The translations under genes and the position numbers were made by a program. DNA of 64,000 nucleotides from Amphiura filiformis (lineage: Eukaryota > Echinodermata > Ophiuroidea > Amphilepidida > Amphiuridae), in contig NC_092629.1 of assembly GCF_039555335.1 (NCBI RefSeq), positions 30,749,382-30,813,381 of the forward strand. Direction: 5' to 3'. Positions 26,400 to 63,950 of this stretch are shown here, one piece after another. The notes beneath the pieces are model-generated. The model did not search any database and had not been told where the DNA came from. It saw nothing but the letters and a program-made list of their open reading frames with translations. Position 1 is the first letter of the stretch. Each line of letters starts with the position of its first letter.

Positions 26400-29300
26400 A
26401 TGGCGTCTTTGCGGAACTTTACATGCAGGAACTATAATATGGAAGTTGTGTGGTTTTTGATATTCACATATCTATTTTGTGGTATATATGGTAAGTTTAA
26501 AGTAATTTGTTTAACAATAGAATTTGATTAAAGTACATACACCAAAAAGGAAAATCCTTTTTGCCGCTGGTCTAAACCGAAGCGCTTAATAGACTGCCTA
26601 CGCTACCTTTTTTAACTATACTTTCAGACAGTGTCAGTTATGTTTCATATAATGTAGTACCATGTTGGTCAGTATTAGTTGTGTAAGTATTACGCCCAAA
26701 GTTATAATGATGTTCCAGAATTACTGATGATAGACAATTGCAGTAAGCATTGCTCCTTTATGTCGAATTGATTTGCCAACAAGCTATTGTAATATTTTTT
26801 CGAGCCACTTAATTCGCGTTCCATAGGATTTGATGCAGCTGGTGAGAACGCGCTCTTAAACACGTAGCGGATCTGCGCAATAAGCACACATAAGCCCATA
26901 ATTACTATTATACGTATCCGGCAGTCATGCTCTTGTCGCAGACAACTTACAGAAGCAATATCAAACGCATGTATTATGAAGTTCATTGCAGACTTGGAGA
27001 AAACTGACATAACATATCCATTGCATAGGTAGCAATCCTTGCAGAGATGAAACCTTCAAAAACGACAATACTTGCACCTTTCTTCTTGGGATTAGTTTAC
27101 AATCTGTTCCACTCGCATATTGTTTAACCAGACATGCGCATGTCGAATGAAGACCAAAATAAAATCCCGTTTTGGGAAAGTTGCGCACCTAGCCCTTTGG
27201 CGTAATCCAAATCTCGTTCACTTGCCGAATTAACAGCACCTTGTTTGCCCAATTCTTCAAAACCCAACGCGTAACTGCACTCACAACACTTCGCCTCGAA
27301 CTCATTGTTTGTCTTCAGCTTATAGTCAACTGCAATGGGTTTTCCACTCATGCAATCTCTTGTGTTAGATACTGTTCGTATATGTACATTGTCAATGCAT
27401 TGCCAATACCGATTGAGTAATGCATTCCAGTCTAGTTCTGACACCTGAGGAAATCTCTTACGGGTTTACAACAGTCGGATAATTAAGAAATAATAATTGT
27501 AAACAACATTTTGCTATCTGCGAATTTGCCGAGTTGTTTTACGCCAAAAAATAATGATGTCGCCCGTGTTATGAGAGGATAGATGCACGACTAAAACAGT
27601 ATACCTTTACACTTCAATTCAAATAACAATATTAATCATATTTAGTATACCAAGTTTTAATCTCACTAAATACCACATTTTACAAGAGATACCTAGCGCT
27701 TAGAATCGGTCAGCTAATGTTGCTAAGCACCTCCGATTGGTTCAAATAGTGTATTCGAGTATCGCGTCGACTCGCACGCGCTGAACCGTGTTATATCGTG
27801 TCATATCACACGGCTAAGAACCAATAAGATTGCAGTGTTTAAGAATGAACAACGATATCCAAATTACTGCCTCGAGGAAGGCATACGGACAGTACGGATC
27901 ATGGTCAATTGTGCACTACCATCCCTCCCTGCCCCCAGAATCCATGATAACCATTTAGCTGACCATTAATTTGTTTGTTTATTTTTCCTATCATTTTTTT
28001 AGCAACAAGACAATTTATGGGAAGTGTGGGTGACGATATGATAACAATGTCTTGTTCACTACCAGATAATACGTATGCTGATGATTATGATCACATAGAG
28101 GTATGTACCGATGCCAATGGCGTATTCCCGGGCGTAAACAGAGTTTTTTCAGAGCAGGGTGGGGGAGGAGGGGAGGGGAGGGAGACAAGGCAACATTCGA
28201 GGGGCAAAATTTGACGGAAATGGCCAAGACTGGGCTAATGAATACAAAAAAGACAGAAAAATCTTAATTTAAAGGGCGGCCAGCATCCACGGGGGAGGCT
28301 ACGCCACTGACCACGTGCACTGCCATGCCAGGAAACCATGATTGGTAACTGCCGGTTTAAGCTGGTTTAGGACTATAGTAGTCACCAGTAGTGGGCTTCA
28401 GCAACAATGCTCTTCAAGTCATAATTGATCCCCGGGGGGCACTCAACTTTGGAGGTGACGCGTATGTAGGGCTGTTAAGACCCCCCTTTTTCAGCATCGC
28501 TGTCACCCAAAGACCCCATATTTTTTTACGAACACATGTTCTGTCACCCGAAGACCCCTTATTTTTTCATTTGATCTGTCACCCAAAGACCCTTATTTGT
28601 TCAATTTTAACAGCAACTTTCATTTATCGAGGTTTCTGTTGCGCTGTTTGGGCTCTCACGCAAAGATTCCATTTAAATAAATGTCATGTTCTCACCCAAT
28701 GACCCCATATTTTTTACATTTTGCTCTCACCGAATGCCAAAATCATGCTCTCACCCAATGACCCCATATTTTTTACATTTTGCTCTCACCGAATGCCCCT
28801 TAGTGCGAAAGTGCCAGCCCTATACACCTATATCCATTTAAAATTGAAGTGCCCCCGGGAATTGATCTAAAGATCAATTAAGGCACTTTAAACAAGTCAT
28901 GGTACTGAAGAGTGCCGAAACTTCGCACAAAACTTCGCACTGAAAAGTTTTGACCACAAGCCACTATGGCTGTCTCTCCTTCACCTCTAGCTCTCCCAAC
29001 TCCTCTCATAACAAGAGTATCCTGCTCAAACTAAAGACATGGTTCAATTCTTTCACAGATATTGAGGGACGATAAAGATGTCGCAAATTACAGGCCAGCA
29101 ATGGCGGATCTGATGGTTACAATTGACGAACAAACTGGCAACCTGTTTGACACAGACATCTCATGGCAACCTGGCTTTGATGGTGGTAACGATGCTGCAA
29201 ATAAATACAGATTAAGCGTTGATCCTATCCAAGTGATAGTTAACCTTGAGGTATGTACATGAATTCATATTAATCTCATATGCATAACGTGCGGGTCATT

Positions 29301-32300
29301 AAACATTTCTACCTAAACATCTCAAAAGAAGTAACTAACCCCCCCCCTAAATAATGACCATTATTCAAAAACGGGTGATTGTATTACAAATCTGTAAAAT
29401 GCGTTGGAAGCAGAATTTATTTCTGGACATTTTGACACCTCATTTGTAGCAATTGACTAAATATTGACGTCACAGCGTACATTTAAATCAATGTTACCCA
29501 AGATTTGAAAGTTGCAGTAAATTCTATTGATTTTGCATTCAGTATAATGGAAGAAAATCTGTGTAATGATAACTGAGTTTTTGTATTGTAAAAATGTGTA
29601 TGTAAGTGCAACTTTTAAATCTGGACCTCACTACATTAAATTGACCGGTGTTTTATTGTTTTCTGGGCTATCGTATCAAATGAGGTGTCAAAATGCGCAG
29701 AAATAAATTCTGCTTCCAACTCATTTTACAGATTTATTTACTTATTTATTTATTTAATTCTTATTTACCCTGGGGTGACCAATCAATGCACTGGCACTGT
29801 TCTCCCTTGGTTCCCATGTGATTTTGTAATACAATAGCCCCGTTTTAAATGATGGCCATTATTTAAGGGGGGTTTGTTACTTTTTTTGAGATGTTTATTA
29901 TTGATAACTTTAAATTGTAAAAGTAAAAGCTCTTGGTATGATATTACAGGGTGTATCAAAATGAAATAAACAGTTTGAAAAGTGCCACTATATTAGAAAG
30001 TACGAAGTATTTAGTCAAAATGGTATTACCGTAAAAACTCGATAGTTAGCATATGTGCTTACTATCGAGCGCTTTTAAAGTTTGGAGTTCATCAAGGTCT
30101 GCAGGAAGACCATTCCACTTGGTGCTTCAAGGCTATCACACGATTGTCAAACAATTCTGCAAGGCGTATACTATAGTATGCTGTCAATTGCAGTTAAGAA
30201 AATGGCGAAACATTTAATTTTCATGTTATCCAGTCTTTGCCTTAATTCTCCTGGATGTTGGTTGGCTCTGCCATTGGAAGTGGCAGGACTGGATTTTGAT
30301 AGTTGTGCTTTCAGTTAAACGAAAGGCTATAGAGGTTATCCACTTCACTCATGTGTGACTTCTAACAAAAGACGCTGATTCCCGTAATATTCCTTATTCA
30401 AAGGAATTCAATACACGACCTCGGAGTTACCTGCATGACTTTGGCGGGCTATTTTGAAACAGTCATGGTTACATATGCAGGTACTTCTTTTGAAAGTCCT
30501 AAACAAGGTATAGCAGTCGCTGATAGGATATGCAGCTTATAGAACACAGATAACCTCTATTGTAGTGGTGAAGTCCAGAGTCTTGGGTGTATTGCATTTC
30601 GTCTGATTTGCCTCTACCATGTATGCTGCCAGATCTGATGCAATTGCTCTCAATGTTTGGTCGTGGTGCCATTTGTACGTAGCTTCCGCTTTATAACTTG
30701 ATAAGAAGCTGCAACCATTGAGGATGTGAAACAGCGAGCGGACAATAACGATGATGGTATAGTGATTAGTATAGGCAGTTTTGGTTTTGTCATACAGCTG
30801 CAGATTAACAGGAGAGGGAAGTTGATCATGAATTGCGTTGAGTGTGGAAGAACAACCACTCTGGTTTCCAGAAATATAGAAGTTTCTTCCAGGTGTAGAC
30901 CTGCATGACATACTTCCAATCCAACCTGTCCCTGTTTTGCACATCTGTAAAAGTATACCAACATGTCCTCCTCGTCTACGTCTACATCTTTCACTAGGCC
31001 GGTGAGGAACTTCCCGTGTTCTTGGTAACTCATGTCTTTGATTAGCTTCTGGTTTCTTTTGTAACCCGTTACCGAGACCGGTTCTGTCGGCTTGGCCCCT
31101 AGCCATCTCATTCAGAATTAGGTGCGTCCTTGCTTATTTTCTTAATTCAAGTAGTGTCCTCGCACTGTGATGGCTTTCCACTACTTTCTGTCCTTCATTG
31201 CTGCCTCTAGTCCAGTGTCATATTTTAGAATGTCTATGTAGGTCAGAGCAGGTCTTCCAGGTTTCCGCTTCCCGTGTTTGGGTATCCAATGAACCATTTT
31301 TGATGCGGGTTCCTCACTTCTGGAACAATAACCAGCAAATCGGATTTTTCTTTACCTGATCTTGTGGCTTATTTTTGGAAGATCTCCATATAGGTTTGCA
31401 TTTGTGACACGTTCCTTCCCATGCACATTCAGAACAGTTCTTGGCTTGCGATTATAACAGCCATCCACTCCCTTTGCAAGTGTTGGGGTGATGGTCCACG
31501 CTTCACATCCATAAAGCAGCACCGACTCCACTGTTGCAGCAAAGATTGGTAAGAGTTGATTTCCAGTTCAGAATTTCTGTTCTACTTCTTTCACATGATT
31601 CCACCTGGCTTTGATTTTCTTAGTTTTTATGCATTTTTTCTAGAGTCTGGGAACTTTTTTCATCTTTAGAGTGATTGGTAGATGGTACTTGGTTACTTGT
31701 AAACATTTGACAGAAGTGGTGAGCTGTTTCTGTTGCATACCATAGTGCTTCTTGCTCATGTACAGAGCTCTGGTTGTGGTAATTTTACATCTGCTTATTC
31801 TTACCCATTGCTTTAGGTATTTCCATGTAGGTAATTGGGAAGTTGTAGATGGTGAGCTCCAATGTCATTTTGGGTACGAACGATCGCATTGTCATATGTT
31901 CATTGACCTATTCTGAAAAATAGGAAAGGACGAAGCCTATAATTATACAAGGCTAACTGTATGTATATAAGTGTTCATTGTCATACGGGCAGTCGGACTC
32001 CTACCAATTTGTTCTTGCTTTTCTTCCACAGATCAGGAATTTGGCACCTACTGACCATGCTAGTTACTGGTGTACCTTTGAAGATCGTGATGGAAATAAG
32101 CAAGCACAACAAAGAGACAGGGTGGATCTCTGTATTTCTGGTAAGTTATGCTTCTTTTCAGGTCAAATTACGAGAAATCCTTGGTCAACCCATTCTCTAA
32201 TTGCCTTTCACATGTATCCATCTCGCAAAAAGCTCACACACACAAAAAAAAAACTACGGACTTCTAAGGTCCACAAATCGAACATGGTGCCTTATCAGGG

Positions 32301-35300
32301 TTGAAATTTCAAAATGTAAAAATCATGTATTCCACTCATCATAGCCTTCATAGGTATTAGGTAAAACAAATTACATAATAATGTATGCAATTTTGGGTAC
32401 TTGAAGAACATATCACATAGCTGATTTTAACGGTACGAATAATAAAATGGTCATTAAAAAAATTTGCTGACCATTTTACTGTGTAAAAACATTACTTCTC
32501 GCATTGTATTTCAAAAGGATTTGATAATATGTATTGATGAATTTTTGCACAAATTACGTTTGTAAAAATTTCTTTTACTATTTTTGTTTCGCACAGAACA
32601 CGTTAAAATCTAAATCTTTATAGGAAATGGCCTTTTTCACTTGAAAAATAATTTTTTAGAGATAAAGTACACTGAGAATTGTCGACATATTCATTAACAA
32701 AGGTAGACCGTTATTCACCTTATCTTGAACTTGTCAAAAATACTTTCATTTACTAATATTTTAAAATAGTGATTTAGATAAGTTAGTAAAATGTCTTATA
32801 ACGTAGGTTGGACTTCAAACAGTGAAGACGGGGTGACGGTGATTGCGAATTCTACTGGAATACATGTCACATGGGATCCTATTGATGGTGCAACATATTA
32901 CCACGTGAGTACAGCGACATACCAACAATCGTACTTGAAAATAACAACATTAGCAAACAACAGAAACAACCAACAACTTGACCATAACAATGGAAATGCA
33001 CACACCGGGGATTTGACGCCAAAAAGGATCATTTGGGGAATAGTACATAAATAGGGGATCATTCAATCAGACCTGGTACATTTTGGGCCATTGACGCAAT
33101 ACAAAATGTAAAATAATCGTGCAATAAATTTCTTGCAATTTTAGCGTAAAAAGGTGAAAATGTATGTCTCATTCGATCTGTTAGATAATTAACTGTAATA
33201 ATTAATTTTGAATGTTATCATCTTCATTTATTTATTTATTTACATAGGTGGTACATGGCGCGACAAGCAACAATAAAGAAAAGAGTGTTAAGATAGTAAC
33301 AGGAAATACCAATTCGGTGTGGTTACCAACTACATCGAACACTATGTACACCATCGAAGTAGTTGCTATATTTCCCAACAATGATCTTACACATCTAGGG
33401 GCATTGAATATTACTACGGAAAATGGTAAGAAAAATGGGGAAAAAATACGCTTATAGATAATATATAGTACTATATATCACTTCGTTATCGTTAAAAAGC
33501 ATCACAATACTTGGGGATTGGGCCTGGGATATACATGCTGTATCAAAATAATAAAAACATGTAAAATCGATTTCATGTGTAATGTAAACTACACTGATTA
33601 AAGTAGTATATGATTTGCTGATTTTATTGGAATTTGTCGTTATACGTTGGAAATAATGTTGTTTCAGCAGTGGTTCGGTGTGCGGAGACGAACGAAAACA
33701 ATAGCTGCGTCCTGCAATCGTGGTGTTTCACGATGAAGCATGTCAAATTATGCCCAGTAGGCGATATTGCGCTTGCATATATCCCAGGCAAAAATTTAGA
33801 CATGAGTCATGCCCATGAACGTGCCAAGATCTTGGCATGAACATGCCAAGAACATGCCCTATTTTCGCTAGCAACGTGCATGAATTTTCATGAATTTGGG
33901 AAATTTTGATGGGTTGTTCATGCTCACCCCTGAATATTCATGCCCTTGCATGCTTTTTGTTTGTCATGCGTGTAGTCAGAGCCTTGATATGTTCAGGGCA
34001 TGTTCATGGGTAACTCATGGGCATGAATCGCGGTCAATGTCAAATTCTCTCTACTTTCATGCCCATAAATTCCTTATTCATGGGTAATTCATGGCATGAT
34101 TCATGGTCAATGTCAAATTTTCTCTACTTCCATGCCCATTAATTTTACTCAAGGGCGTCAATTACAATTTTAATGGGTTCAAAATTAACGACCCATGAAT
34201 CCTTGAAAGAGGATTTTCATGCCATATACAAAACAAAAGAATCAGAATGTCTTGCCATGTTCATGGCATAAACATGCCATGTTTATGGCATGATTTGCAT
34301 AGCAACCAGTGGCGAATTTTGGGAATACCCATGAATTATTTTTGCCTAGAGCATTCCGAGGGAAACTGAATACCCCCAATTTTTCTCCATGCCTGTATCA
34401 AGATGGCGGTCGAGTCCCGGTTCTCCTTCCCTAATTCTGTGGTTGCATTAGATGACCTTATGATTGTGCAGTCCAGCTGTCCAGAAAGTGACCTTTCAGG
34501 TTCCTTTGCATCGATTGTCAATTGACGCATGATATTGTTTAAACGGCTGATGTCTCAAACGTGAACAAAACAGGACTAATTTGTTTAATGCTGTGCGTGA
34601 TAGCCATAGGCTTCAACATATGCATTAGAACTTTTGAGATATATTTTCTCAAAATATCAAGAGCTATCTCAAGAACCACCAAACCAATACTAGGCTTGTT
34701 TGTACTCGTTTTAATTATTGATTTTTTTTTAAAAACTTGTCGTTTGCAGTCCCGCGTGGAGAGTGTTAAATTGAGGAGTCTTAGCTTGTTGCATAATTAT
34801 GCTGATTTTTATACACGCAGTGTGTAAGAGATGCAAAGGTATATTATGTGGACCCAGTTTACCGGGCCAGTTTAATATTGCAATGCGGGTTGATCTTTTC
34901 AGTACCGAAACTTTTCGCCCTATTTTTGCAGATGTATTTGTTAGAGAGGTAACTTCAAATAGTGCCTCCATATGGTGGGGAGCTGTCGACAACGCGGATG
35001 AATACCACGTAAGTATTATGGTATTACAATACAATGATTGTTTCCTTTAAAGCAATAATGTGTGATTTGCATAAAGAATAGATTCTTATTTAAATGTTTG
35101 TTTTCACTGATCACATTATCCCCGAGGTATAACGAAGAATTGCGATTTCATTCCAACGCCTACAATGCGTGTACTACGCTCGCCGATCGTATTACATGTA
35201 ACTGTACGGAGCATCACGCTCGACGTGTGTGTATACAAGCTGACATCCACGATACATGTTAGCAAGCATTTGATCGTTGAACTCTGGATAAACCCGGTCG

Positions 35301-38300
35301 ACCCGGTTTTAATACAAAAAGTTAAAAGTTACTGTTTATTAAGGCACTTCAGGCTTAATCTTTTACGTGGTATTTTAGTATACCACTGGGCATTATAATT
35401 ATGCAAAAAGTAGAAATCCGAGTAAAATTGAGGGCGTCGCTGTGAAACAAATCACACATCATGGCTTTAAGGGTACACGATGTTTTGTTGGTCGAAGCAG
35501 CCAAAAAAAAAAATCGATTTTCTTTATCAAAATCAATAACGGTATATTATTCAACACTTTGATATTTTGCAAAAGTTCATCCAACAAAATATTATTAATA
35601 CAATTTATATTGTTGTTAATGATTTATGTACGTTTTACAAAAGTGTTGCTGTTTTAGCACTCTTTACAACATAACTCAAGAACCGCAGGGCCTACAAAGG
35701 TGTATCTGTGATATTTGAATACTTCTACACACTCGCTATGAAATGATCAATGCAAATTTTGCCAAAGCTCACTACCATTCGCAAGATGCTGTGAACTACC
35801 GAATCGCAACAGTTGACCTTAAGTCACTAAGGACTCACTATCAATAGGCTACACTTGACTTTTGCAAGATCCGTGCTTTGCATGGGCTTGATTTATTTAT
35901 ATAAACATCAAAGAGAAATTACGATGTAGGTGATGCATCTATTGATCTAAGGCAAGAGCTTGAGACAAGATGCATCCCCTTTACAATTGCCATTCTCCAG
36001 CCCTTAACCACTGCGCTTGATTAGTAACGTATAGGTGCTGGCCCATTCCATGTCAACTCCAGGGATGTGCACCGCAGCACCTCTTCAATTTTTTTCTTTT
36101 TCCGTGTGGTGGTAGATATTGATGAGAAAGTAAAATCCTGAAAATTTGAGCTTCATACTCCATTTCGTTTTCCCGTGGCATCAATTTGAAATTTAGGGGG
36201 TCAGCGTAAAAAATGTGTCGCAACGCGAAAGACGACGTTTGGAGGTCCATAAATGTATAAAAGGAACCCTTTAAAACTTTGAAAAGTATGTATCCTGGGG
36301 TACTTTTTGGTGTAGAATTCAAATCTGCTATCAGAAAACTTGTAACTCCTTTACTTTAAAAGATATAGGGCCCTCAAAATGCAACTTCGTCCAACCAGGA
36401 CCAACTTGATAGCAGATTTGAATTCTACACCAATAAGTACCCCAGGATACATACTTTTCACAGTTTTAAAGGGTTCCCTTTATACATTTATGGACCTCCA
36501 AACATCGTCTTTCGCGTTGCGACACATTTTTTACGCTGACCCCCCTAAATTTCAAATTAATGCCACGGGAAAACGAAATGGAGTATGAAGCTCAAATTTT
36601 CAGGATTTTACTTTCTCATCAATATCTACCACCACACAGAAAAAGAAAAAATTGAAGAGGTGCTGCGGTGCACATCCCTGGAGTTGACATGGAATGGGCC
36701 TGCTGACGTGCTGTTATTGTCTGTATACTCGCTGGGACCCTTCCAAATGCCGAACGAGAGACTTGTTCTAACTGATATTTCTTTTCAACCAAATGCTTTG
36801 TAGATTCTTTATCATCCATCAAAGGATAAAGAAAAAAGGATCGTACCGGTTCGAACAACACAGAAGGAGATCAAAGATCTTCGACCAGACACAGAGTACA
36901 TCATTGAAGTTGTTGCTATTTTAGAGGATACCGAAAAATTTCAAACGATAGGAGAGGTCACTATAAGAACCAAACCACCTGGTATGTTAAATGTTATTCA
37001 TTTGGGTAGTGAAACGCCATTTATACCGCTACGTTTGATAATTTTGAGTAAGGGGCTAGGGGAGTCAGTTTAGTTTTAAAGGTCTGTGGTTTGCACCTTG
37101 CAATGAATCAACCTACTTCTAATTATTTTTCAGGTGTTCTAAACATTCCCATTATAGCAGGCAGTGCTGCAGGTGGTTTGGTGCTACTTATCATTGTGGC
37201 AATTATTCTCTATTGCTGTTGTTGTCGGTAAGTGGGTAAGAAACAACCAATTACGTTACCTATTACAATTATAGGTTAATAAATGGGTATCACTTGTTGG
37301 GAGTGAAATTGTACAAAATAATGTGCGCGTACTGAGATGTTGATGCCTAATGCACGAGCCCCGGAGAAGTGAGTGCATTAGACGCATCAACATCTCAATG
37401 CACGTTTCGCATTTTTCTAACATTTGCTCGGACTGAATCTCAAATAAGTATTTATTATGTTGATGCGTCTATTGCACTCCGCTGTTCAGGGGGTAGGGCA
37501 ACTTCTTAGGGCAGGGGGAAGCTGCCTCTTGCCCCTGGCTAAGTCATTGCTTTTGGCGATTCGGGCCAGTAGCGTAGCTTGTGGGGACAGAGTACACTCT
37601 GACATAAAATGAGAAAAGTGCCCCCTTCATATAAAAGAAAAGAAAAAATCGGGAAGAAAAAGGAAAAGAAAAAAGCAAAGGAGCCCGTTTTCCGCACCAA
37701 AAGTTGTTTAATTCATTTTTTTTTAAATTTACAAATATCTAAATTAAAAGAAAAATATATAAAGATTAACAAACTAACCTACTGTTCTTGTCCAAGCAAC
37801 TTGTTAATAGGTACATATGCTTATTGTATAATTTTTACGGTATACCAAATGTTTACGCGTTACGCTCGTATTTTCGCTTGTTTTTGGAAGCTCAAATATT
37901 TTACACTCCCACTTATAATACCGGTTCAAAATGATGCAACTGGGATTTTTTCCTTTGCCCCAATTTTGTTAAAAATTTTGACTCCCCCTCCCCTCCCCCA
38001 CACACACACCATGAAAGCTGGCTCCACCCCTGATTCAGGCCAACTACTCTCCCACCATAAGACGGGTTGACTGTTGACACCGCTGTTTGTAACAAAGAAT
38101 TATTTCACGATTATGAAGATTATCATTCATCCAGGTATAAATAACTGTGAAATTATTATAATCTGATCTACTGGACTTACGTTTTTTGATCTCGGATGCA
38201 TCATCAAGCCAACTGATGTTAAAGCGGCAAAAGTTCGTTGACCTGTGAAGAGAATGTTACGTCACAGGTCGACGATGAGCCAAACCTCTGAGGGATCTTC

Positions 38301-39087
38301 TTTATCGCTGAACAATGGGCCCCTGCCAAGTTGTGTCGTAGCCCGCCTCCCTTATTGAGTGAAGCACAGCACTAATCATTCATTTGATAACAAGGACGTC
38401 GAGATATTAGATCGCGAAAGCAGATGGTTTGAGAGGGGAGTCAAGGAAGCGATTTATGTCAAACGGGAGGAGCCTTCACTCAATAAGGGAGGCGGGCTAC
38501 GACACAACTTGGCAGGGGCCGATTGTTCAGCGATAAAGAAGATCCTTCAGAGGTTTGGCTCATCTTCGACCTGTGACGTAACATCCTCTTCACAGGTCAA
38601 CGAACTTTTGCCGATTTAACATCAGTTTTACTGATTCAGTTGGTCTGATGATGCATCCGAGATATGATGCGAAATATTGCCACTCATCAAAAAACGTAAG
38701 TCCAGTAGATCAGATTATAATAATTTCACAAAGAATTATTTTGTTGTTGTTTATAGCAATCGGTCGCCTTCTCCTCCCAGCAACGATACGAAGAGACAAT
38801 CAGAACTGTACGATGACATTGACGACACTCACCATAGAAATAGCCCCAAGATTACCCCTACTTATTTAGAAATGGATGAAGGAATTAATGGCAACAAAGA
38901 CGCACAGGATAGAGCTCCTCGTCCCCTCCCTCGGCCTGATGGGAATAATTTACGTCTACCCGCAGGTGACGCAAATTACGTTCTTCCGAATCCTGCAAAC
39001 GAGCGTGACGTTATGTCGAGTGATCCCGGTTATGTTAGTATGCGACGATCAAAGCCGGCTCCTGTACAAGTATATGACATCAAATAG
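26400..39087 (+). CDS. Receptor A: Ig + two FN3 type I membrane protein with YxxM tail (10 exons, 474 aa)
   Basis: Exons: 26400-26490, 28003-28100, 29059-29250, 32032-32140, 32828-32904, 33248-33425, 34932-35008, 36804-36981, 37134-37227, 38757-39087. They sum to 1425 bases in frame. Residues 1-31 form a signal peptide (VVWFLIFTYLFCGIY core). Residues 31-163 form a V-like Ig domain with C48 and C141 in DHASYWC. Residues 164-249 and 249-334 are FN3 domains, each from a 77- plus a 178-base exon. The membrane span is about 340-360, with GSAAG (GxxxG) and CCCC after it. Tail tyrosines: Y383, Y401 (YLEM), Y439 (YVLP), Y457 (YVSM), Y471. YxxM is the known docking motif for PI3K p85 SH2 domains. Inferred role: a phosphotyrosine-signalling surface receptor or adhesion molecule; ligand unknown, no named family recognised. 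The exon 5 acceptor is weak. Confidence 0.85.
27230..27447 (-). other. Possible exon or coding remnant, minus strand, inside receptor A intron 1
   Basis: On the minus strand a good acceptor-like TTTCCTCAG precedes an open frame beginning VSELDWNALLNRYWQCIDN and including RTVSNTRDCMSGKPI and KCCECSYALGFEELG. It is Cys-rich and looks coding in composition. Further open but frame-shifted segments follow to about 26700. No family was recognised. It could be a decayed gene copy or an unrecognised mobile-element ORF. Confidence 0.3.
28410..28870. mobile_element. CCCGGGGG-ended repeat with CACCCAA-GACCCC units
   Basis: It starts near TTGATCCCCGGGGGGCACT and ends with the inverse AGTGCCCCCGGGAATTGATC. 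Inside are degenerate tandem units (GTCACCCAAAGACCCC; CTCACCCAATGACCCCATA). Probable nonautonomous DNA element in receptor A intron 2. Confidence 0.65.
29313..29897. mobile_element. Foldback MITE, long copy (TAAACATCTCAAAA)
   Basis: TAAACATCTCAAAAGAAGTA at the left and TTACTTTTTTTGAGATGTTTA at the right are inverses. The arms extend through GCGTTGGAAGCAGAATTTAT. A TTTA-repeat and about 90 extra bases interrupt the right arm. A shorter, one-armed copy is in intron 2 of receptor B (49140-49413). It lies in intron 3 of receptor A. Confidence 0.75.
30537..31111 (-). other. Unrecognised open frames, probably mobile-element derived
   Basis: Two overlapping minus-strand frames of 189 and 153 residues. 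The 153-residue frame contains QEHGKFLTGLVKDVDVDEED and MLVYFYRCAKQGQVGL, with acidic and tudor- or chromo-like character. It lies just downstream of a LINE fragment on the same strand, so it may be another element piece. No family assigned. Confidence 0.3.
31130..31560 (-). mobile_element. LINE 3' coding fragment (RTE/L2/CR1-like), minus strand
   Basis: Minus-strand translation gives LLYGCEAWTITPTLAKGVDG, then CYNRKPRTVLNVHGKERVTN, RKIRFAGYCSRSEEPASKM and GKRKPGRPALTYIDILKYDT. This order (LYG-EAW, RR-R-AGHC, GRP-T-D-L) is the usual C-terminus of many invertebrate non-LTR retrotransposons. It is interrupted by stops and therefore dead. It sits in receptor A intron 3, opposite to the gene. Sequence to about 31900 may belong to the same or another element. 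Confidence 0.7.
33790..34330. repeat. CATG-rich degenerate repeat tract
   Basis: Dozens of CATG tetramers in about 540 bases, with units such as TTCATGGGTAATTCATGG, CATGCCCATAAATT and GGTCAATGTCAAATT repeated at about 100-base spacing. Short palindromes occur (TGGCATAAACATGCC). It is noncoding, in receptor A intron 6. Confidence 0.6.
34590..34770 (+). repeat. Repeat family R3, copy 2
   Basis: Matches 19995-20225 (AGCCATAGGCTTCAACATA; CTCAAGAACCACCAAACCAA; AGGCTTGTTTGTACTCGTTT). It ends about 160 bases before exon 7 of receptor A. Confidence 0.6.
36040..36700. mobile_element. 661-base foldback with arms of about 285 bases
   Basis: The left arm starts GGCCCATTCCATGTCAACTC and the right arm is its inverse ending GTTGACATGGAATGGGCC. 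Arms pair almost throughout, with a loop of about 80 bases (36332-36405). Mirrored open frames (36053-36322 minus, 36379-36588 plus) follow from the symmetry. It lies in receptor A intron 7, about 100 bases before exon 8. 35009-36039 is AT-rich with no recognised gene. Confidence 0.85.
37318..37425. repeat. Short inverted repeat
   Basis: GTACTGAGATGTTGATGCCT pairs with GACGCATCAACATCTCAATG. The left flank (TATCACTTGTTGGGAGTGAA) recurs at 42130, so this is part of a dispersed repeat. It lies in receptor A intron 9. Confidence 0.5.
38092..38741. mobile_element. Penelope-like retroelement fragments in inverted arrangement, with target duplication
   Basis: A 14-base direct repeat ACAAAGAATTATTT flanks it (38092-38105 and 38728-38741). 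Between lie two inverted arms (about 38148-38362 and 38472-38730) and a short centre. The plus-strand frame includes VEILDRESRWFERGVKEAIY and PSLNKGGGLRHNL, typical of the end of the GIY-YIG endonuclease domain of Penelope-like elements. Partial copies in inverted arrangement are a habit of that group. It is only a 3' fragment and cannot be active. The corresponding place in receptor B (about 55580) lacks it. Confidence 0.7.
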
Positions 39088-39485
39088 GAATTATCATCAA
39101 AAGGTGAAGTGTATTAAGGGCCTAATTGCAAAATTGGATTCAGAGGTATAGCGCCTTATTTTAATCAGCTTGAACTTCAAGCTACTTCAGGCCCGGACTT
39201 CAGGCCTGTTTCAATATCAACTTGGCGTGCCAGGGGATTCCTTGTGCTGTCGAATGATATTTTGATTTCACAATCACAAAATTGAGTAATTTGTCTTCGA
39301 GTATCGAATGTAAATCAGGCCTTTAGTACGATAATTATGACCAATGATACCGGTCACCATACCAGGAAGTATAGGACACGCAACAAGTGACGTACGAGGC
39401 TGACGAAACTACAAGGCTGACAGCCTGTTCAAAACAGTGAACAGTTACAAATTTAACTAGTGGCAAATGGTGGTCATAGACCACA

Positions 39486-41363
39486 AACCTAGCTGGGGCG
39501 TGTTGGTGTTGTGGAGGTATTTGACCCCTGCAAAATGTTCCAAAAATGTTCCCCTGGTCATGAGGTTTGTTGTCACCGAGTTTGAGTCCCGTATTCCTTA
39601 CAGATGTCCAAAAATACATTTATAAGATTTGACCTCTGCATGACCTTTGACCTGACCCCTGCAAAATGTTCCCCTGATCATGAGATTTGTTGTCACAGAG
39701 TTTGGGCCACATACCCCTTACAGATATCCAGAAAATGAAATTATTAGATTTGACCCCAGATAACCTTTGACCTGACCCCTGCAAAGTGTTCCAAAATGTC
39801 CCCCTGATCATTAAGTTTGTTGTCACCAAGTCTGAGCCCCGTACCCCTTACAGATGTCCAGGAAATTCATTTCTAAAATTTGACCTCTGCATGACCTTTG
39901 ACCTAACCCGTGCAAATTGTTCCCCTGGTCATGAGATTTGTTGTAACCGAGTTTGAGCCCCATACCCTTACAGATGTCCAGATAGTGCAATTGTAAGATT
40001 TTGCCCCTTTAATGACCTTTGACCCCAATTCTGTAAGCAAGTTCTAGGCGTGGGGTATAGCCGATGCATATATGCAAATGACATCATTGTACTATATAAT
40101 ATGTGGCAGGAGAAGCATTTTGAAGGTATTTGGTTAAATACGGGAAGTGCCCCCTTAATGGGTATTTACCCCAATTCTGTTTAGACCCTATGGGCACTGG
40201 GTATAGCCGATACATATGTGCAAGTTACGTAACTGTAGGGTGTAACATGTAGGAGGAGAAGCATTTTGAAATTTATTGCCAGAAAGAAGAAAGAACTAGA
40301 TCTGGTTACAGATCTGGACCTAGCCGGGGCCGGAAATGCCAGTCTTAACTTAAAGCTTGACATTTGACCGGCTATTATGGACATCTCACACCATTAATGG
40401 TGCATCACTGTAGCATGTAGGGGCTTTATCCATCTTCCATAGGCTGAGATACAGCTACTTTTTCGTAATTTTAAACATTTTTTGCAAATTTGACGTTTTG
40501 ACCTCCTTAATGACCTTTGACCCCAATATAAAAAAACCTCATATACACCGAGAAAATGCATTGTTACAGTTTAAATTAAAAAAATCTACTATGCTTAGTT
40601 ATGGAGATAAAAATTCTTGAAGTTATTTAGCTTAAAACCGGAAATGACGTCTAAATGACCTTTAACCAAAAAAATAAAAATACCGTGCATACATCGGGTA
40701 TCACTAATACATATATGAAATTAATGTCACTCTGGTCTGGTTATGTTTTGAGATATAATAAAAAAAATGAACATATTTGATGATTTTTGGTTTTTGACCG
40801 GAAGCGACCCTTAATGACCTTTTGACCCCAAAACTGTAGACACCCCAAAGACCCTGGTTGGTAGCAATGCATGTGTGCTAATGACAACACTCTGCTGTGT
40901 AATTTGTAAAGACAGTGATTTTTGAATATATTTAGCTTTCAGACCGGAAATGACCCCTTAATGACCTTTGACCCAAATTCTGTGAATAATTTATAGGCAC
41001 TGGATATAGCCGATGCATATGTGCAAGTGACGTCATTATATGATGTAACATGTAGGAGAAGAAGCATTTTGAAGATATTTGGTTTTATACCGGAAATGAC
41101 CCTTAATGACCTTTGACCCCAAATTTGTGAATATCCTATAGACACTGGATATAGCCGATGCATATGTGCAAGTGACGTCATTGTAGGATGTAACATGTAA
41201 GAGAAGAAGCATTTTGAAATTTGTTGCCAGAAGAAAGAAGCAGAAGAAGAAAGAAGAAAGATCCGATAGCATCACAAGACCTAGCCGGTGTCCCGGCTAG
41301 GTAAGAAAGATCGGATAGCATTACAGTACCTAGCTGGGGGTGTAAACCCCCCCAGCTAGGTAA
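39486..41363. repeat. Tandem array with TGACCTTTGACC motifs, bracketed by CCTAGCTGGGG
   Basis: Part 1 (39534-40031): four units of 120-131 bases starting at 39534, 39655, 39775 and 39906. Part 2 (40031-41290): diverged units of about 120-150 bases with GCCGATGCATATGTGCAAG and AACATGTAGGAGAAGAAGC. Nearly every unit has TGACCTTTGACC. The array begins by CCTAGCTGGGGCG and ends in a hairpin ACCTAGCTGGGGG/CCCCCCAGCTAGGT. Overlapping minus-strand frames are artefacts of the array. It starts about 400 bases after the receptor A stop. Confidence 0.75.
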
Positions 41364-42397
41364 AAACAACATACTGTACTTACAGTAGTGGTTCTTTGCC
41401 AAACCCCGCCGATTTTAGAAGAAAAAATTGTGTTTTAGCAACACATAATACATACAGAATTGTTTGGGAAGATTTCATGATTATGTGTCAAAGCCATAAT
41501 GTAACATTTGCTGAGGAGGACGCCCACAATATTTATCAAAATTATGTTTTTACACGATTGTAATATAAACTGATACTTTATAATGAACAGTGCATTTTAT
41601 TTTTGATAGCATTTGACGTCAAGATTGTAAACAGTTGACAACTTCAATAGATGCAGAGGAAAACATACCAGTTCATATAGTGATAAAATGGCCCCATGGA
41701 ATATATTTTGGGGTGTGATAGGGCCACTCACTTGTGATTGTGGTCATGGGTGTGTGCGGCGGTCAAGAGTCCCTTTTTACCCGAGTGAAATCATAGGCGG
41801 TCCCACACCTCTACCAAATTCAAGTTGACCCACCGGCTCATTGGTCTCTAGTAGTGTAAAACAAATAGGGCTATACATTTTGTAAAATATTTTTTTGACT
41901 TTAAAAGTATTAGGGGGAACTTATAAAGTTGTGGACCCTATATGAAACTGTTTTAATGATCAAAATGTATGACTAAGGTTATTGACGGCTTTAAAATTAT
42001 TTGTCATGTTTGCATATTTTGTATTCAGAAATATTCAGAAAATTTCAACTTAGCACTCTAAATATTTATTACTTATTTGTAGATAGAATGTATTACTAGA
42101 CCAACATTTTGATTGTCAAACCAATAAGTAAAGTGCGTATCACTTGTTGGGAGTGAAATTGTACAAAATAATGCACACGTACTGGGATGCTGATATATAT
42201 CTGGGTGTTTGCATTACTTTATAATATTTTGCATTTCCCCATGTCACCCATTTGTAAGTTTTTGTATCCCATGTTTCTGAGTTAAATAAAAGCACAGATG
42301 ACCATAGCATTGTTGTTCGGTGGAATCACTTAAATTTATTGTTCACCAAATTAGCTGGTTCTCTTGTTCTTATGACAGTAGTCCAGATTGGCCCAGA

Positions 42398-42446
42398 GGG
42401 TATAGACCATCCCTTTACATAATTATGTAAGGGATGGTCTATACCA
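42398..42446. repeat. Near-perfect short palindrome
   Basis: GGTATAGACCATCCCTT mirrors AAGGGATGGTCTATACC around ACATAATTATGT. It is followed by CCCTGATGTGGTAATGACG, a motif that recurs in the MITE at 63807-63950. 41364-42397 holds no recognised gene; AATAAA at 42285 could be a late poly(A) signal for receptor A, but this is weak. Confidence 0.6.
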
Positions 42447-42599
42447 TTTTCACCCTGATGTGGTAATGACGTCAAAGTGCATTTTATTGGGCTCAGCGCG
42501 GGTAAAAACTGAATTTGTAAGCATTTGTTTTCGGTTCCATGACTCTAAACTTGGCCGGATGGTATTGGCGGGTATAGGATGTTGTCTGTTTCTGAACAT

Positions 42600-42905
42600 A
42601 ATCCGGTGTGGGAATTTGCCGCAAGCAAATCCGCTGCCAGCCGTCTGACCTCGTTGCTTGTTGTCAGGCTCCGTCGAGACATCGTCACTCGCCGCCCAGA
42701 CAACGTCCGGTTTTGGTCGCTAGTCTCCGTTTCCTGCCACAGCCTTTCATCCCTTGCCGTCGTGTTGTCGCTGAAGGTCGTTCCCACTCGTCAGCGAATC
42801 TTGTTTTTCCTCTTTTTGCCGTCGCTTTGCCGTCAACATTTTGTGATTTTCACGTTCGTCACCTTTCGTTGGTTATCTGCCGTCATAGTGTGACCGGGCC
42901 TTTAG
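42600..42905. mobile_element. GC-richer nonautonomous element, copy 2
   Basis: Matches 18560-18850 closely and ends GTGTGACCGGGCCTTTAG. The 131-residue open frame here (42608-43003) is not maintained in the other copy, so it is treated as noncoding. Confidence 0.6.
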
Positions 42906-43005
42906 CGCACATAACATCATTCAACCGCGGCAAAATGTTCGCGAAAAATAGGGGTGTTTTCCGAAGGGTGACAGAGCTGGGCAGAGCTGGTGTTCTGCAA
43001 TGAAT

Positions 43006-43348
43006 AAGGGGCTGTGCAATAATTATGAGCCCGAGGGTGTTGCATGGCAAATTGAGGGGGGGGGCGAGGAGCAATTTTTGGCAAGCCGAGACGGGGTCAA
43101 GCGATTTTTGCCACACATTCATTGGGCGCCTTTTAAAAAAAGCTTATGAAAACAGTACGGAAACGGTTAAACATGCAAATATTCCTACTCGCTGTGCTTG
43201 CAACATAGCTTATATATCTAGACCATAATGTTTGTAAATTGGGATCCCCAAAATTTTTGGCATGCGTAATGGGGGGGGGCAAAGAATTTTGGCAGGCCGA
43301 GAGGGGGGGGAAATTTACCCCGGGCTCATAATTATTGCACAGCCCCTA
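43006..43348. mobile_element. TIR element AGGGGCTGTGCAATAATTAT
   Basis: AGGGGCTGTGCAATAATTAT, continuing GAGCCC, at the left is inverted at the right (GGGCTCATAATTATTGCACA, then GCCCCT). About 343 bases with G-runs and GGCAAGCCGAGACGGGG inside. Confidence 0.75.
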
Positions 43349-43489
43349 ACTTCGATCCCTTCCTAGGTCGTGCGGTTCTTGTGTTAAGGTCAATAATTCA
43401 AAACGAACATTTGGAGATAATCATGAAGGCTATGATGAAATGCGTTTTATAAACCCATGAACCACAGCCTAGCCCATATCAAAATATGA

Positions 43490-44822
43490 GACCTTTTCGA
43501 ATAACTTCCCGATAGTCACCGGGTAGACACCGGCAAATTTCACATGCAGATTAGTCGATAGGTAGCGGGTGACTACCCGATACATTGTTGGGAAACCATA
43601 GTGGATACCTTTCAGGTAATAGGTACCGGGTGACTTTTGTGGGAAACTAGCGGGTAACCACCCGGTGACTTTTTTTGGGAACTTGCGGATAACTACCCGA
43701 TAACTTTTCGGGGACCTAGCGGATAACTTTTGGTGACGATATACCTGGTGACCTCTTTGGAGACTTCCTGTTGACCTTTTGGGGAATGCAGAAATACAAA
43801 TTCATGAGTATCAGGCAATTTAACTTATTATTTGAATTGTAGTTTTTGGAGAAAAACATCTCACTCATGGTAGTTGAGCTAGTGCTATCTTGCTAAAAGA
43901 AACTTGAAAGTGTATGTTATTGTGCCAAAATATTCTTCTGATTTAATTTGGTTCACACCTTTATAAGGTGCATACATTTCAATTAATGTACAACCAAATT
44001 GTTATGATATCAGCATTATATACATGTGTATATTGCAGTACCTAAATGTGATCACATCACTGACACAGCCTATAATTTTTATATCAAATATTATAATTTA
44101 TTTACAACAAATAGCTTAACACAAAGCTAATTATATCAGTTAATTGACACATTATAGCTGATGATTAATAATTTAATTAACATTAATTTACTGTCAAAAT
44201 GATTTACTAGAAAAGATATAAACTAAAACATTCAAATGTGTCATATATATTAGGTACATGTATAAACACTGTATCAGTATACAAATCATATCATACAAAT
44301 TTCCTACCTGCATTGTCATATGAAATCAAGCATTCAATGCTTTATAATTCTTACAGCATGTTCCAGATTAATTAGTAAACATCTTGTAATGTCCTACATG
44401 TAAATCCATACATTTTGGATCACAAATAACTTGAATATTCTGCACAAATATATTCCAACTGCCAACAGCTACATTGTAGCTATTCCATTTTGAATCCATT
44501 CAGTGACCTTTGACCATATCCACCCACAATGCATTCTGAAGATGCTTTATGCTATTTCAAGGTCAAATTAAAAGCGGATAACCACCGGGTAACTCCTGCA
44601 AAGAATCTAAGTTTCTGGGAACCTTCTGGATAACTCATTTGAAATATTTGAGTTTTTGGGAGACTTCCGGATGTCTACCGGAAAACTTTTGGATAACTTA
44701 ATTATGTATCCGCAAGGTATCCGCTAGCGGGCACTTTCGGATAACTCTGGAAAAGGTACCCAAAAGGTTTCTGATGACCACCGAATGGTCATCGGGTGGT
44801 CACCGGGAAACTTTTCTTTTTA
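43490..44822. repeat. 1.3 kb element with degenerate CCGGGTGAC / CGGATAACT repeats at both ends
   Basis: 43490-43800 and 44570-44822 each carry many units such as CACCGGGTAGAC, AGCGGGTAACCACCCGG and CGGATAACTTTT. The 700 bases between are AT-rich and unstructured. Noncoding. It may be a nonautonomous element with subterminal repeats. Confidence 0.55.
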
Positions 44823-44824
44823 CT

Positions 44825-45131
44825 ATACGCTGGCGAAGTTACGTAATAATCGGATTAACTACCATAGCAATAGGTGAAAACAATTTTTGAATATACCGCG
44901 CTGCACTGATACGTTCACGCGGTACCTCTTTATTGAACCATATCATGCTGATTACTTGCACCTGTAAGATTAGTATCTTTGAAAAGACCAGTATTGTATT
45001 CAATCTATGATTGAAGACATACACAGGTGATGAGTGTAACCTGCTTGTAGTGCAGCGCGATATGTTCAAAATTGTTTTCACCTATTGCTATGGAAATTAA
45101 TCCGATTAATTACGTAACTTCGCCAGCGTAT
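44825..45131. mobile_element. MITE ATACGCTGGCGAAGTTACGT
   Basis: ATACGCTGGCGAAGTTACGT, continuing through CAATAGGTGAAAACAATTTT, is inverted at the right end (AAAATTGTTTTCACCTATTG to ACTTCGCCAGCGTAT). It is 307 bases, directly abutting the right end of the 43490-44822 element. 45132-45830 contains an A-run and a CAA-rich tract (45768-45828) but no gene. Confidence 0.8.
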
Positions 45132-45829
45132 GGGAGAGCACACAGTGGAAATGGTAAAACGTGGAACAAAAGACAGGGTAACCGTGGTAACAGTGTTATT
45201 CCGTAAACAAGGCCATAGCATAAATTTAGGGGAATCCCCGGACGGTACATGGCCTGATTTTAATGCACTTTGTATCTGAAAAGAATCTGTGATCCGATAG
45301 GCAATTAAGGTTTGAAATAAGTGGATTGGAAATTATTTACTATTCTAATCATTCATTTAGTTCTTTATTTTTTAAGGATGGTCTTAACCCTGGAATTATG
45401 GAAATTTTCGGGCCGCATAACTGCTAAACTTCACCAAAAATATTTGAAATTTGGGCGAAAATCAGCTTTTTTTATGATTTTTGGAAAATTAAGCATTATT
45501 TGACAATTTCTGTGCGTATTTCTCAAAGTTGGCCAAAAAAAAAAAAAAGTTTATTTGACCTCACAGATGAATTTATCAAGTCTTTGACATTCTAAATATG
45601 TATGATATAATACTTTAAACCAACAATTTAGCAGTTATGAGACCCAAAAGTTTTCACCTACAAGCATAACTTTGCTACTCTTATGATAGCCCTACATCAA
45701 ATTAATGAGTAAAATACTTTATCATTCTAACAGGCCGATACTTTTATTATGACGCGGTAATCAGAAAACAACAACAACAACCAAACAACAACAGGAAAAA
45801 AACCCAAAACAAAACAACAACAACAAAGA

Positions 45830-46090
45830 TCCATTCGTCTTGTTCGGGTCACATTATTCTGTGCCAGGGCATAGACATGTACTGCGACGTTACTTTATCT
45901 GATATATATGCATGCAATTTTGCTAAAAATACAACAATGACAAATCAAAACAGTCCACTTCGGAACAAAAGGGATATGACGTCATATATTGGTAACTGAA
46001 TAAACGACCTGTTTGGCCTTGACAATGAAAACTATTGAATTTGGGAATCACTGAAACTTTTCGTTTATATATAAATTGTGCAACAATGTC
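45830..46090 (+). repeat. Segment shared with 24090-24345
   Basis: See the 24090 entry. It is followed by 46245-46330, a TTAGGG-like stretch with GGTTAGGGTTAGAGTT and variants. Confidence 0.4.
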
Positions 46091-46336
46091 GACAGCTGCC
46101 TGATTTCAAAATCACGAACCTTTATACGGAGTATACCTGAAATACCGGTCCCGGGACCCGGATGCTTTATTTATTTGAGCAACCAATAGGCCGCTGCAAC
46201 TATATGGGCCGCTGCAACCATAATGGGCCGCAATCCGGGGACGCAATACACCTAACATTTATGGTTAGGTTTAAGGTTAGGGTTAGAGTTGGGGTTAGTC
46301 TAGGGTTTAAATTTAGGGTTGACTCAATGCGGCCCA

Positions 46337-47037
46337 TCCCAGCAAACACAAAACGTTTTCCACATCATTCGCAAAAGGTTATAAAAGGTTGTCAGAAAAT
46401 GTTTAAATGTCGGGTTATATAAAGGGTACATTAATGGTATCAAACGTTTTCATAACATTAAATAACATTTGTTGGTAATTTACTGCACAGCAAACACAAA
46501 TGTTTTACAGAAAACATTTAAATGTCGGGTTATATAAGGGTATAAAAACGTTTTAATAACATTCCAAAAACATTTTTGAAAACTTGGTATAAATCATTCT
46601 AAACAGAATGTTATTTTGGGGTTGAAAAAATATTTTGCAAAAAATGTTTGCCCAAAATATTTACAATAACGTTTTTAAAATGTGTTCACGACCTTTATAT
46701 AACCCGACATTTAAATGTTATTAAAACGTTTTGTAAAAAAAACATTTTAAGAACATTTCTGTGTTTGCTGGGTGCAAATATTTTAACATAATGTTATTTA
46801 ATTGTTGACAAAATATAAAAATTTGGCCAAAAATTTTTGCAAAAATAGTTTACAATGACATTTCGAAAACATTTTAAAAATATTGTTGTAGTGTGTTTTC
46901 ATACAAAACGTTTTAAAACGATTTCATGACCTTTATATAACCCGACATTTTAATGTTATTAAAACGTTTTTATCTAAACCAAACCCCAAAATATAACTTA
47001 TTTAAAACGTTTTAAAAACGTTTTTGTGTTTGCTGGG
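46337..47037. mobile_element. AACGTTTT foldback element (CCCAGCAAACACAAAACG)
   Basis: CCCAGCAAACACAAAACGTT at the left and AAAACGTTTTTGTGTTTGCT, then GGG, at the right are inverses. Inside, AAAACGTTTT and TATATAACCCGACATTT, with their inverses, recur, and the AGCAAACACAAATGTTTT terminal motif also occurs internally (46492). This is the layout of a multi-repeat MITE. The flanks (GCAACCATAATGGGCCGC; ATGGTTGCAGCCCGG) suggest it landed in another repeat. Confidence 0.7.
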
Positions 47038-47649
47038 ATAATGGTTGCAGCCCGGGGGTTGCAGAAAATAATTACGCGTCTTGGACTGGTCACCGGGTGC
47101 AATGCTTAAAACATAATAAAAAGACACCTGCATTGGGGCAACTTCCGCCATCTAGAAATTAAAATGCAACAGCCGGCAGCCATTGCATGTGCATTGTAGA
47201 ATACTCTGGATTGTAAAATTTCGCTAAGGATAGCCCTATGACTCATTATCCCGACTAATTAGCCATCCCAATGCTGATACCAAGTTTGCTAACTATACTG
47301 AAAGCCATTGTTAGTCTTTTGTTTTTATTATTATTCATTTATATAAAAATAACGGATACAAATTAGTAGACCCTATTATAAAATAGGCCTACGAGTTTAC
47401 GATAAGCCTCACCAAACCGCATTTTTCCGGATCCCAGATGTTCCTGAATTGAGATTATTTTTTCAGAATAGTGCAGTGACGTTTATCATTTTCATTTTGA
47501 ACTTTGGGAATGAATCTTAGCAATAAACGAGGGATAATAAGTAGTGAATATGATTGAAATTTTGACGGGTCACTAAATTCAAAACATTCTCGTCACCAAC
47601 ATTTCTTGTTTCAAATCTCCGTATTCTTAAAACAGCAGACCCAAAAGAA

Positions 47650-47761
47650 ACAACCGCAGTCACGAAATTAAAACCAGCCAAATGTTTCACAGGTGAGGAA
47701 GTACATTAAAAAATTACACCAATTTAGTATCAGTGAGTTGGCTAGTAGAATAAACTTGAAC
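47650..47761 (+). promoter_or_regulatory. Promoter-proximal / 5' UTR block of receptor B, conserved with receptor A
   Basis: CAACCGCAGT (47651-47660) and TTAAAACCAGCCAAAT (47668-47683) match the receptor A upstream block with the same seven-base spacing. A GTGAGGAAGTAC match follows. Confidence 0.55.
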
Positions 47762-55937
<8,176 letters not shown>

Positions 55938-63672: not shown

Positions 63673-63806
63673 CTGTAAAACATGAAACGATATGAAACCA
63701 GGACAAATGAGAGTTAGCAACTGGTATGAAAATATGTAAGGGTTGCACGTTGAACATGACACAGCATTCCAGCTCCGCATTTCAGCTTCCATTTCACATC
63801 TTACTG

Positions 63807-63950
63807 CTAAAGCATTTCCCACCCTGATGTGGCAGTGACGTCAGTGCGCATTTCATTGGGCGCTATTGTTCACTCAAAGCGCTGGCGTACGTGCTAAAAG
63901 ATGCTGCATAGATGCGTGCACGAAACAGCTGCCTCAGGGAAATGCTTTAG
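63807..63950. mobile_element. Small MITE (CTAAAGCATTTCCC)
   Basis: CTAAAGCATTTCCC and GGGAAATGCTTTAG form the terminal inverted repeat. Inside, CCCTGATGTGGCAGTGACGT recurs at 42453. It lies upstream of the second-last WDR54 exon, in what should be another intron. Confidence 0.75.

Follow-up and report, generated by a model that had tools for sequence, protein, structure and literature searches.

Two neighbouring genes on the + strand of the 64,000-nt stretch of DNA analysed here (the window) are best read as tandem paralogous type I single-pass receptors that lack a kinase of their own, would be phosphorylated by another kinase and would recruit SH2 proteins, a reading to which we assign a probability of roughly 0.6. 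The pair occupies positions 26400-55937, from the ATG of gene 1 at 26400 to the last base of the gene 2 stop codon at 55937. On the predicted proteins, a receptor function as such is very likely and phosphotyrosine/PI3K signalling is somewhat favoured, while an immune role is possible but unlikely, the sequence offering no means of telling it apart from a role in adhesion, guidance or growth signalling.

Gene models, paralogy and surroundings

The predicted model of gene 1 spans 26400-39087 and comprises 10 exons encoding 474 amino acids, and that of gene 2 spans 47762-55937 with 7 exons and 345 amino acids. The first-pass annotation had proposed two adjacent same-strand genes with common intron phases and several identical exon sizes, and each of these features is recovered in the models. 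Both are complete, with reading frames open throughout from ATG to stop and canonical GT...AG borders at all 15 introns. The phase series of gene 1 (1,0,0,1,0,1,0,1,2) equals that of gene 2 (1,0,1,0,1,2) once its three Ig exons are removed, and four of the seven corresponding exon pairs are of equal length (178/178, 77/77, 178/178 and 94/94 bases), the other three measuring 91/103, 77/80 and 331/328 (gene 1/gene 2).

The similarity of the two proteins is beyond chance, as evidenced by a blastp E value of 2e-138, and identity between the copies is 68% across the 337 codons that align once Ig exons, stop codons and codons with gaps are set aside. Differences at codon positions 1, 2 and 3 number 58, 54 and 110, respectively, and dN/dS is 0.33 (dN 0.19, dS 0.57; 95% bootstrap interval 0.24-0.45), with 0 of 2000 bootstrap replicates at or above 1. 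The ratio and its interval indicate that the coding reading has been under selection, and values by part are 0.27 for the signal, 0.41 for the first FN3 domain (FN3-1), 0.28 for the second (FN3-2), 0.26 for the membrane segment and 0.33 for the tail. Purifying selection is what the aligned codons show as a joint signal of the pair, a pairwise dN/dS being a quantity that cannot show present-day selection on each copy.

Nucleotide identity within the seven exon pairs is 70-86%, and self-blastn aligned 33215-33433 of gene 1 with 50375-50593 of gene 2 at 79% identity. Fourteen flanking 100-base stretches (12 intronic and 2 beyond the coding ends) are 55-69% identical, the control of 30 shuffles per upstream stretch giving means of 58-61%; the flanks lie slightly above the shuffled level in 9 of the 14 cases and below the lowest exon identity in all 14. 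Downstream of both stop codons a stretch still aligns, with CAAAATTGGATTCAGA common to the two. The shared layout of a signal-like exon, two FN3 domains of two exons each (phase 1-0-1), a membrane exon and a tail exon shows, at the level of the predicted gene structures, that gene 1 and gene 2 derive from one gene. The tandem receptor pair of the first-pass annotation is thus upheld, as paralogous single-pass receptor-like proteins, by alignment, exon plan and joint purifying selection. No third copy was found in the 64,000-nt window by self-blastn (E <= 1e-6) or tblastn (E <= 10), the remaining tblastn matches being FN3-exon cross-matches or weak chance or low-complexity matches, and among viral contigs none of 11 pattern-matching stretches was confirmed as a relative of the gene 2 protein.

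Several other elements were observed in and around the two genes. An intron of gene 1 holds a MITE-like repeat of about 590 bases (29310-29898) with inverted arms at 29314-29390 and 29823-29897 (84%), and pieces 86-89% alike to it occur at 49155-49417, just before gene 2 exon 2. The introns of gene 2 contain long ATG/GAT microsatellites at 48104-48567 (154 units) and 54863-54976 (38 units), the former of which probably accounts for a GC skew of 0.35 in 48001-50000. In the gene 2 intron that separates the FN3-2 exons from the membrane exon, 53752-54207 (+) matches an endonuclease-reverse transcriptase below threshold (25.0 bits against 27.4) and is probably a broken non-LTR retroelement; the open frame ahead of it, at 53410-53667, has no match. 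At 10975-11217 (+) an R3H-associated match of 28.1 bits (cut-off 25) and at 14275-14538 (+) an R3H match of 19.6 bits (below the cut-off of 26.8) probably mark exons of one gene (10975-14538, + strand), which we take to be R3HDM4-like. Towards the other end of the window, an open frame on the - strand (63592-63840) has a WD-repeat-like end (LTSGEDTCVRVWSI) with weak PDB matches to WD proteins (E 0.0015 and 0.005) and just a sub-threshold DAN match in Pfam, and a tRNA family match at 62911-62972 (+), weak at 30.2 bits against a cut-off of 29 (E 0.028), was not called by ARAGORN.

Ectodomain, membrane span and cytoplasmic tail

Signal peptide and membrane span were called by hydropathy alone, each protein showing a single hydrophobic stretch at its N terminus and a stronger one ahead of the tail. 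The start codon and signal-like peptide lie in exon 1 of each gene (26400-26490 in gene 1, with a hydrophobic 19-mer scoring 1.62 at residue 14; 47762-47864 in gene 2), and the two exons align and both end in phase 1.

In gene 1 the signal-like peptide is followed by an Ig-like domain encoded by exons 2 (28003-28100; first part with Cys48, phase 1-0), 3 (29059-29250; middle, phase 0-0, within a sub-threshold V-set match) and 4 (32032-32140; end with DHASYWC, phase 0-1). A hallmark of the Ig superfamily is a pair of cysteines with the motif D-x-A-x-Y-x-C at the second, which the domain shows as DHASYWC; its Cys48 and Cys141 lie 93 residues apart, a long spacing, and it has no Trp at the usual distance after the first Cys. 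Profile scores lie below the Pfam cut-offs (21.7 bits against 26 for V-set and 15.0 against 23.7 for I-set), and weak matches to nanobody and antibody chains occur among PDB sequences (60 of 149 matches listed). Because this symmetrical block enters and leaves in phase 1, its presence or absence is frame-neutral. Self-blastn (E <= 1e-6) and tblastn (E <= 10) detected no Ig-like counterpart in gene 2 or in the rest of the window. The label "Ig/FN3" originally given to both genes consequently holds for gene 1, with its sub-threshold Ig-like domain, but not for gene 2, in which no Ig trace was found.

Two FN3 domains are common to both proteins. FN3-1 is encoded by exons 5 (32828-32904; first half, phase 1-0) and 6 (33248-33425; second half, phase 0-1) of gene 1 and by exons 2 (49451-49530; first half, phase 1-0) and 3 (50408-50585; second half, phase 0-1) of gene 2, and FN3-2 by exons 7 (34932-35008; first half, phase 1-0) and 8 (36804-36981; second half, phase 0-1) of gene 1 and exons 4 (51736-51812; first half, phase 1-0) and 5 (52667-52844; second half, phase 0-1) of gene 2. 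The start of FN3-1 in gene 1 is uncertain because the exon 5 acceptor is poor, with three in-frame AG choices (32783, 32807 and 32828) at a pyrimidine fraction of 0.40-0.45, the 14 other acceptors of both genes having 0.65-0.85; the choice moves the start by up to 15 residues and leaves the architecture unchanged. FN3-2 is clear by Pfam fn3 (35.8 bits in gene 1 and 36.9 bits in gene 2; cut-off 25) and FN3-1 is weak (13.0 and 20.7 bits, same cut-off), with FN3-1 of gene 1 matching fibronectin among PDB sequences (E 0.0076). Since FN3-1 has the same two-exon plan as FN3-2 (about 77 + 178 bases, phases 1-0-1), the gene structure suggests an internal FN3 duplication older than the gene duplication.

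The membrane span is encoded by exon 9 of gene 1 (37134-37227) and exon 6 of gene 2 (55363-55456), both of phase 1-2, together with juxtamembrane cysteines (CCCCR in gene 1, CWCCR in gene 2). Sub-threshold Pfam matches at the membrane region are to EphA2_TM and DUF3481 and, in gene 2, also to DAP10 (14.5 bits, cut-off 22.9). The cytoplasmic tail and stop codon lie in exon 10 of gene 1 (38757-39087; YDDI, YLEM, YVLP, YVSM) and exon 7 of gene 2 (55610-55937; YIDI, YLHP, YVTM), and a stretch RPLPR is common to both tails. Neither protein has a kinase or tyrosine-phosphatase catalytic domain (Pfam, E up to 1), and neither tail contains the ITIM pattern [SIVL]xYxx[IVL].

Of the five tail tyrosines in gene 1 and the six in gene 2, four occupy aligned positions. 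Their +3 residue is kept at three of the four positions (I/I, M/A, P/P and M/M in gene 1/gene 2), YLEM of gene 1 corresponding to YFVA in gene 2, and the +1 and +2 residues are each kept at one of the four. As the tails are 59% identical overall, three kept +3 residues are suggestive and not by themselves unusual. YxxM occurs twice in the gene 1 tail (YLEM and YVSM; shuffle p = 0.004) and once in that of gene 2 (YVTM; p = 0.11, not significant), and for Yxx[MPIVL] the same kind of test gives no more than a marginal result (p = 0.027 in gene 1 and 0.13 in gene 2). The common signal peptide, two FN3 domains, membrane segment and tail claimed in the first-pass annotation can accordingly be retained, the signal by hydropathy and FN3-1 weakly by profile, and the proposed phosphotyrosine type is supported at sequence level by tyrosines in SH2-type contexts in both tails.

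We posit that the ectodomain would bind a ligand borne by another cell or present in the environment, and that a partner tyrosine kinase, probably of the Src family, would then phosphorylate the tail. The conserved YV[ST]M site, once phosphorylated, could recruit PI3K, YxxP could recruit Crk-type adaptors, and YxxI, which is read as a Src-type SH2 site, could recruit Src-type SH2 proteins. Published work describes phosphorylation of the tails of non-catalytic receptors by Src-family kinases (PMC11399299), and binding of YxxM to p85 and of YxxP to CRKL (PMC7982423). The Ig-like domain would alter or extend the binding surface in gene 1, the type of tail staying the same, and the likeliest output would be a PI3K-dependent signal for adhesion, survival or activation. 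Should both genes be expressed, they would constitute a small natural experiment in which the same tail and membrane plan is combined with and without an Ig-like domain. The gene content of the window suggests an animal host, and if this is an invertebrate, the pair would help to trace the rise of phosphotyrosine receptors with PI3K-type tails outside vertebrates. The value of the pair hinges on family size and ligand, the parts of the architecture being common.

Rival readings

A named full-length receptor was matched neither in Pfam (both proteins) or NCBIfam (gene 2) nor among the PDB matches listed (60 of 88 for gene 1 and 48 of 48 for gene 2), most of which involve FN3 or Ig domains and a few membrane-span regions. 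Likewise, no receptor of this make-up is named in the literature titles and abstract openings among the matches listed, in a search whose coverage leaves out most subscription journals. The constituent parts of both proteins are very common and their make-up is generic; a lineage-specific pair is plausible. The more particular proposal of a lineage-specific, undescribed animal receptor family, in which an exchangeable Ig module sits on a fixed FN3-FN3-membrane-PI3K/Crk/Src tail in the manner of paired innate or self-recognition receptors, draws on the symmetrical phase 1-1 exon block of the Ig-like domain and is improbable.

The strongest rival to receptor signalling, possible though unlikely, is that the two proteins are adhesion or guidance molecules of general Ig/FN3 type whose tail tyrosines tune endocytosis or the cytoskeleton and do not transmit a receptor signal. 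Their best PDB sequence matches are indeed to FN3 domains of tenascin-R, tenascin, fibronectin and RPTP-delta, and their ectodomains are without cysteine-rich ligand-binding parts. This similarity, however, is at the level of the generic domain, and three SH2-type sites are kept in both tails, which argues against this reading.

Paired innate or allorecognition receptors, like the tunicate fester co-receptors (FcoRs), would be adjacent paralogues that tell self from non-self by differences in their ectodomains or tails, a role that we consider quite improbable for this pair. The resemblance consists in a tandem arrangement with a variable ectodomain, the Ig-like domain being present or absent, and in tail motifs: YDDI in gene 1 and YIDI in gene 2 fit the FcoR core motif Y-x-x-I/L/V. 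One study describes this motif and the clustering of the receptor genes, and gives the FcoR architecture as a V-type Ig domain, Sushi, two C2 Ig domains, a membrane span and a tyrosine tail (PMC12065747). Clustered genes and the Yxx[ILV] motif are thus the likeness to the Botryllus FcoRs, but their Sushi and C2 Ig domains are without counterpart in either gene 1 or gene 2, no Sushi or C2-set profile having been found for either protein (Pfam, E up to 1). The tails also lack an ITIM pattern and are of the same kind in both copies, so that no activating/inhibitory split is visible, and the average dN/dS (0.41 for FN3-1, 0.28 for FN3-2) does not point to a rapidly evolving ectodomain, though such an average could mask individual sites.

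Very improbable is the cytokine-receptor type mentioned in the first-pass annotation, by which the proteins would be divergent cytokine receptors, of class II or, in the case of the Ig-bearing gene 1, of IL-6R/gp130 type, signalling via JAK and STAT. It was weighed because gene 2 has a class II-like seven-exon plan (signal, two exons, two exons, membrane, tail), a likeness confined to gene 2, gene 1 having 10 exons; the duck IL-10R1 gene is reported to have seven exons (PMC12652433). Against a cut-off of 21, Interfer-bind reaches 22.3 bits when the whole gene 2 protein is scanned but drops to 17.5 for its FN3-2 alone, stays at 16.5 and 16.6 for the full protein and the single domain of gene 1, and is outscored by plain fn3 (45.6 bits in the whole gene 2 protein, 36.9 in FN3-2 alone). 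Class II cytokine receptors have conserved cysteine pairs in their FN3 domains, and class I receptors have a WSxWS motif and the four N-terminal cysteines of the cytokine module, whereas there is no cysteine in either FN3 domain of either gene and WSxWS is absent from both proteins. The intron phases also differ, being 1-0-1-0-1-2 vs 1-2-1-0-1-0 in class II, the latter series being reported for most IFN-upsilon receptor 1 genes, as in other interferon receptors (PMC8863823). The likeness to IL-6R and gp130 is one of domain order in gene 1 only (Ig-like, then FN3 domains, then membrane span), with an Ig-like domain that lies below profile cut-off; one paper traces IL6R to Mollusca (PMC13203501). 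We rate the cytokine-receptor reading low because of the intron phases and the missing FN3 cysteines, and do not retain it.

Least probable of all is that one copy is a decaying pseudogene or that all exons form one long gene, as the sub-threshold endonuclease-reverse transcriptase match and GAT microsatellite in the penultimate intron of gene 2 and the weak acceptor at gene 1 exon 5 might suggest, but a separate start, signal-like peptide and stop are present in each gene, neither frame is broken, and dN/dS is well below 1.

Comparison with known systems

Tenascin, fibronectin and RPTP are long multi-FN3 proteins with other ends, and although they are the nearest PDB sequence neighbours of the FN3 domains of the pair, this likeness is at domain level and not one of whole proteins. 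With PI3K-recruiting receptors the pair has in common a YxxM in both tails, that of gene 2 not being above shuffles. The preferred reading of kinase-less, SH2-recruiting single-pass receptors places gene 1 and gene 2 in a broader kind, and by predicted anatomy the pair, which we assign neither to the cytokine receptors nor to the FcoRs, fits the non-catalytic tyrosine-phosphorylated receptors. From these it differs by an FN3-based ectodomain and by having no ITIM pattern, a pattern that occurs in part of this class only, and it shares with them a single span, the lack of a catalytic domain and tail tyrosines in SH2 contexts.
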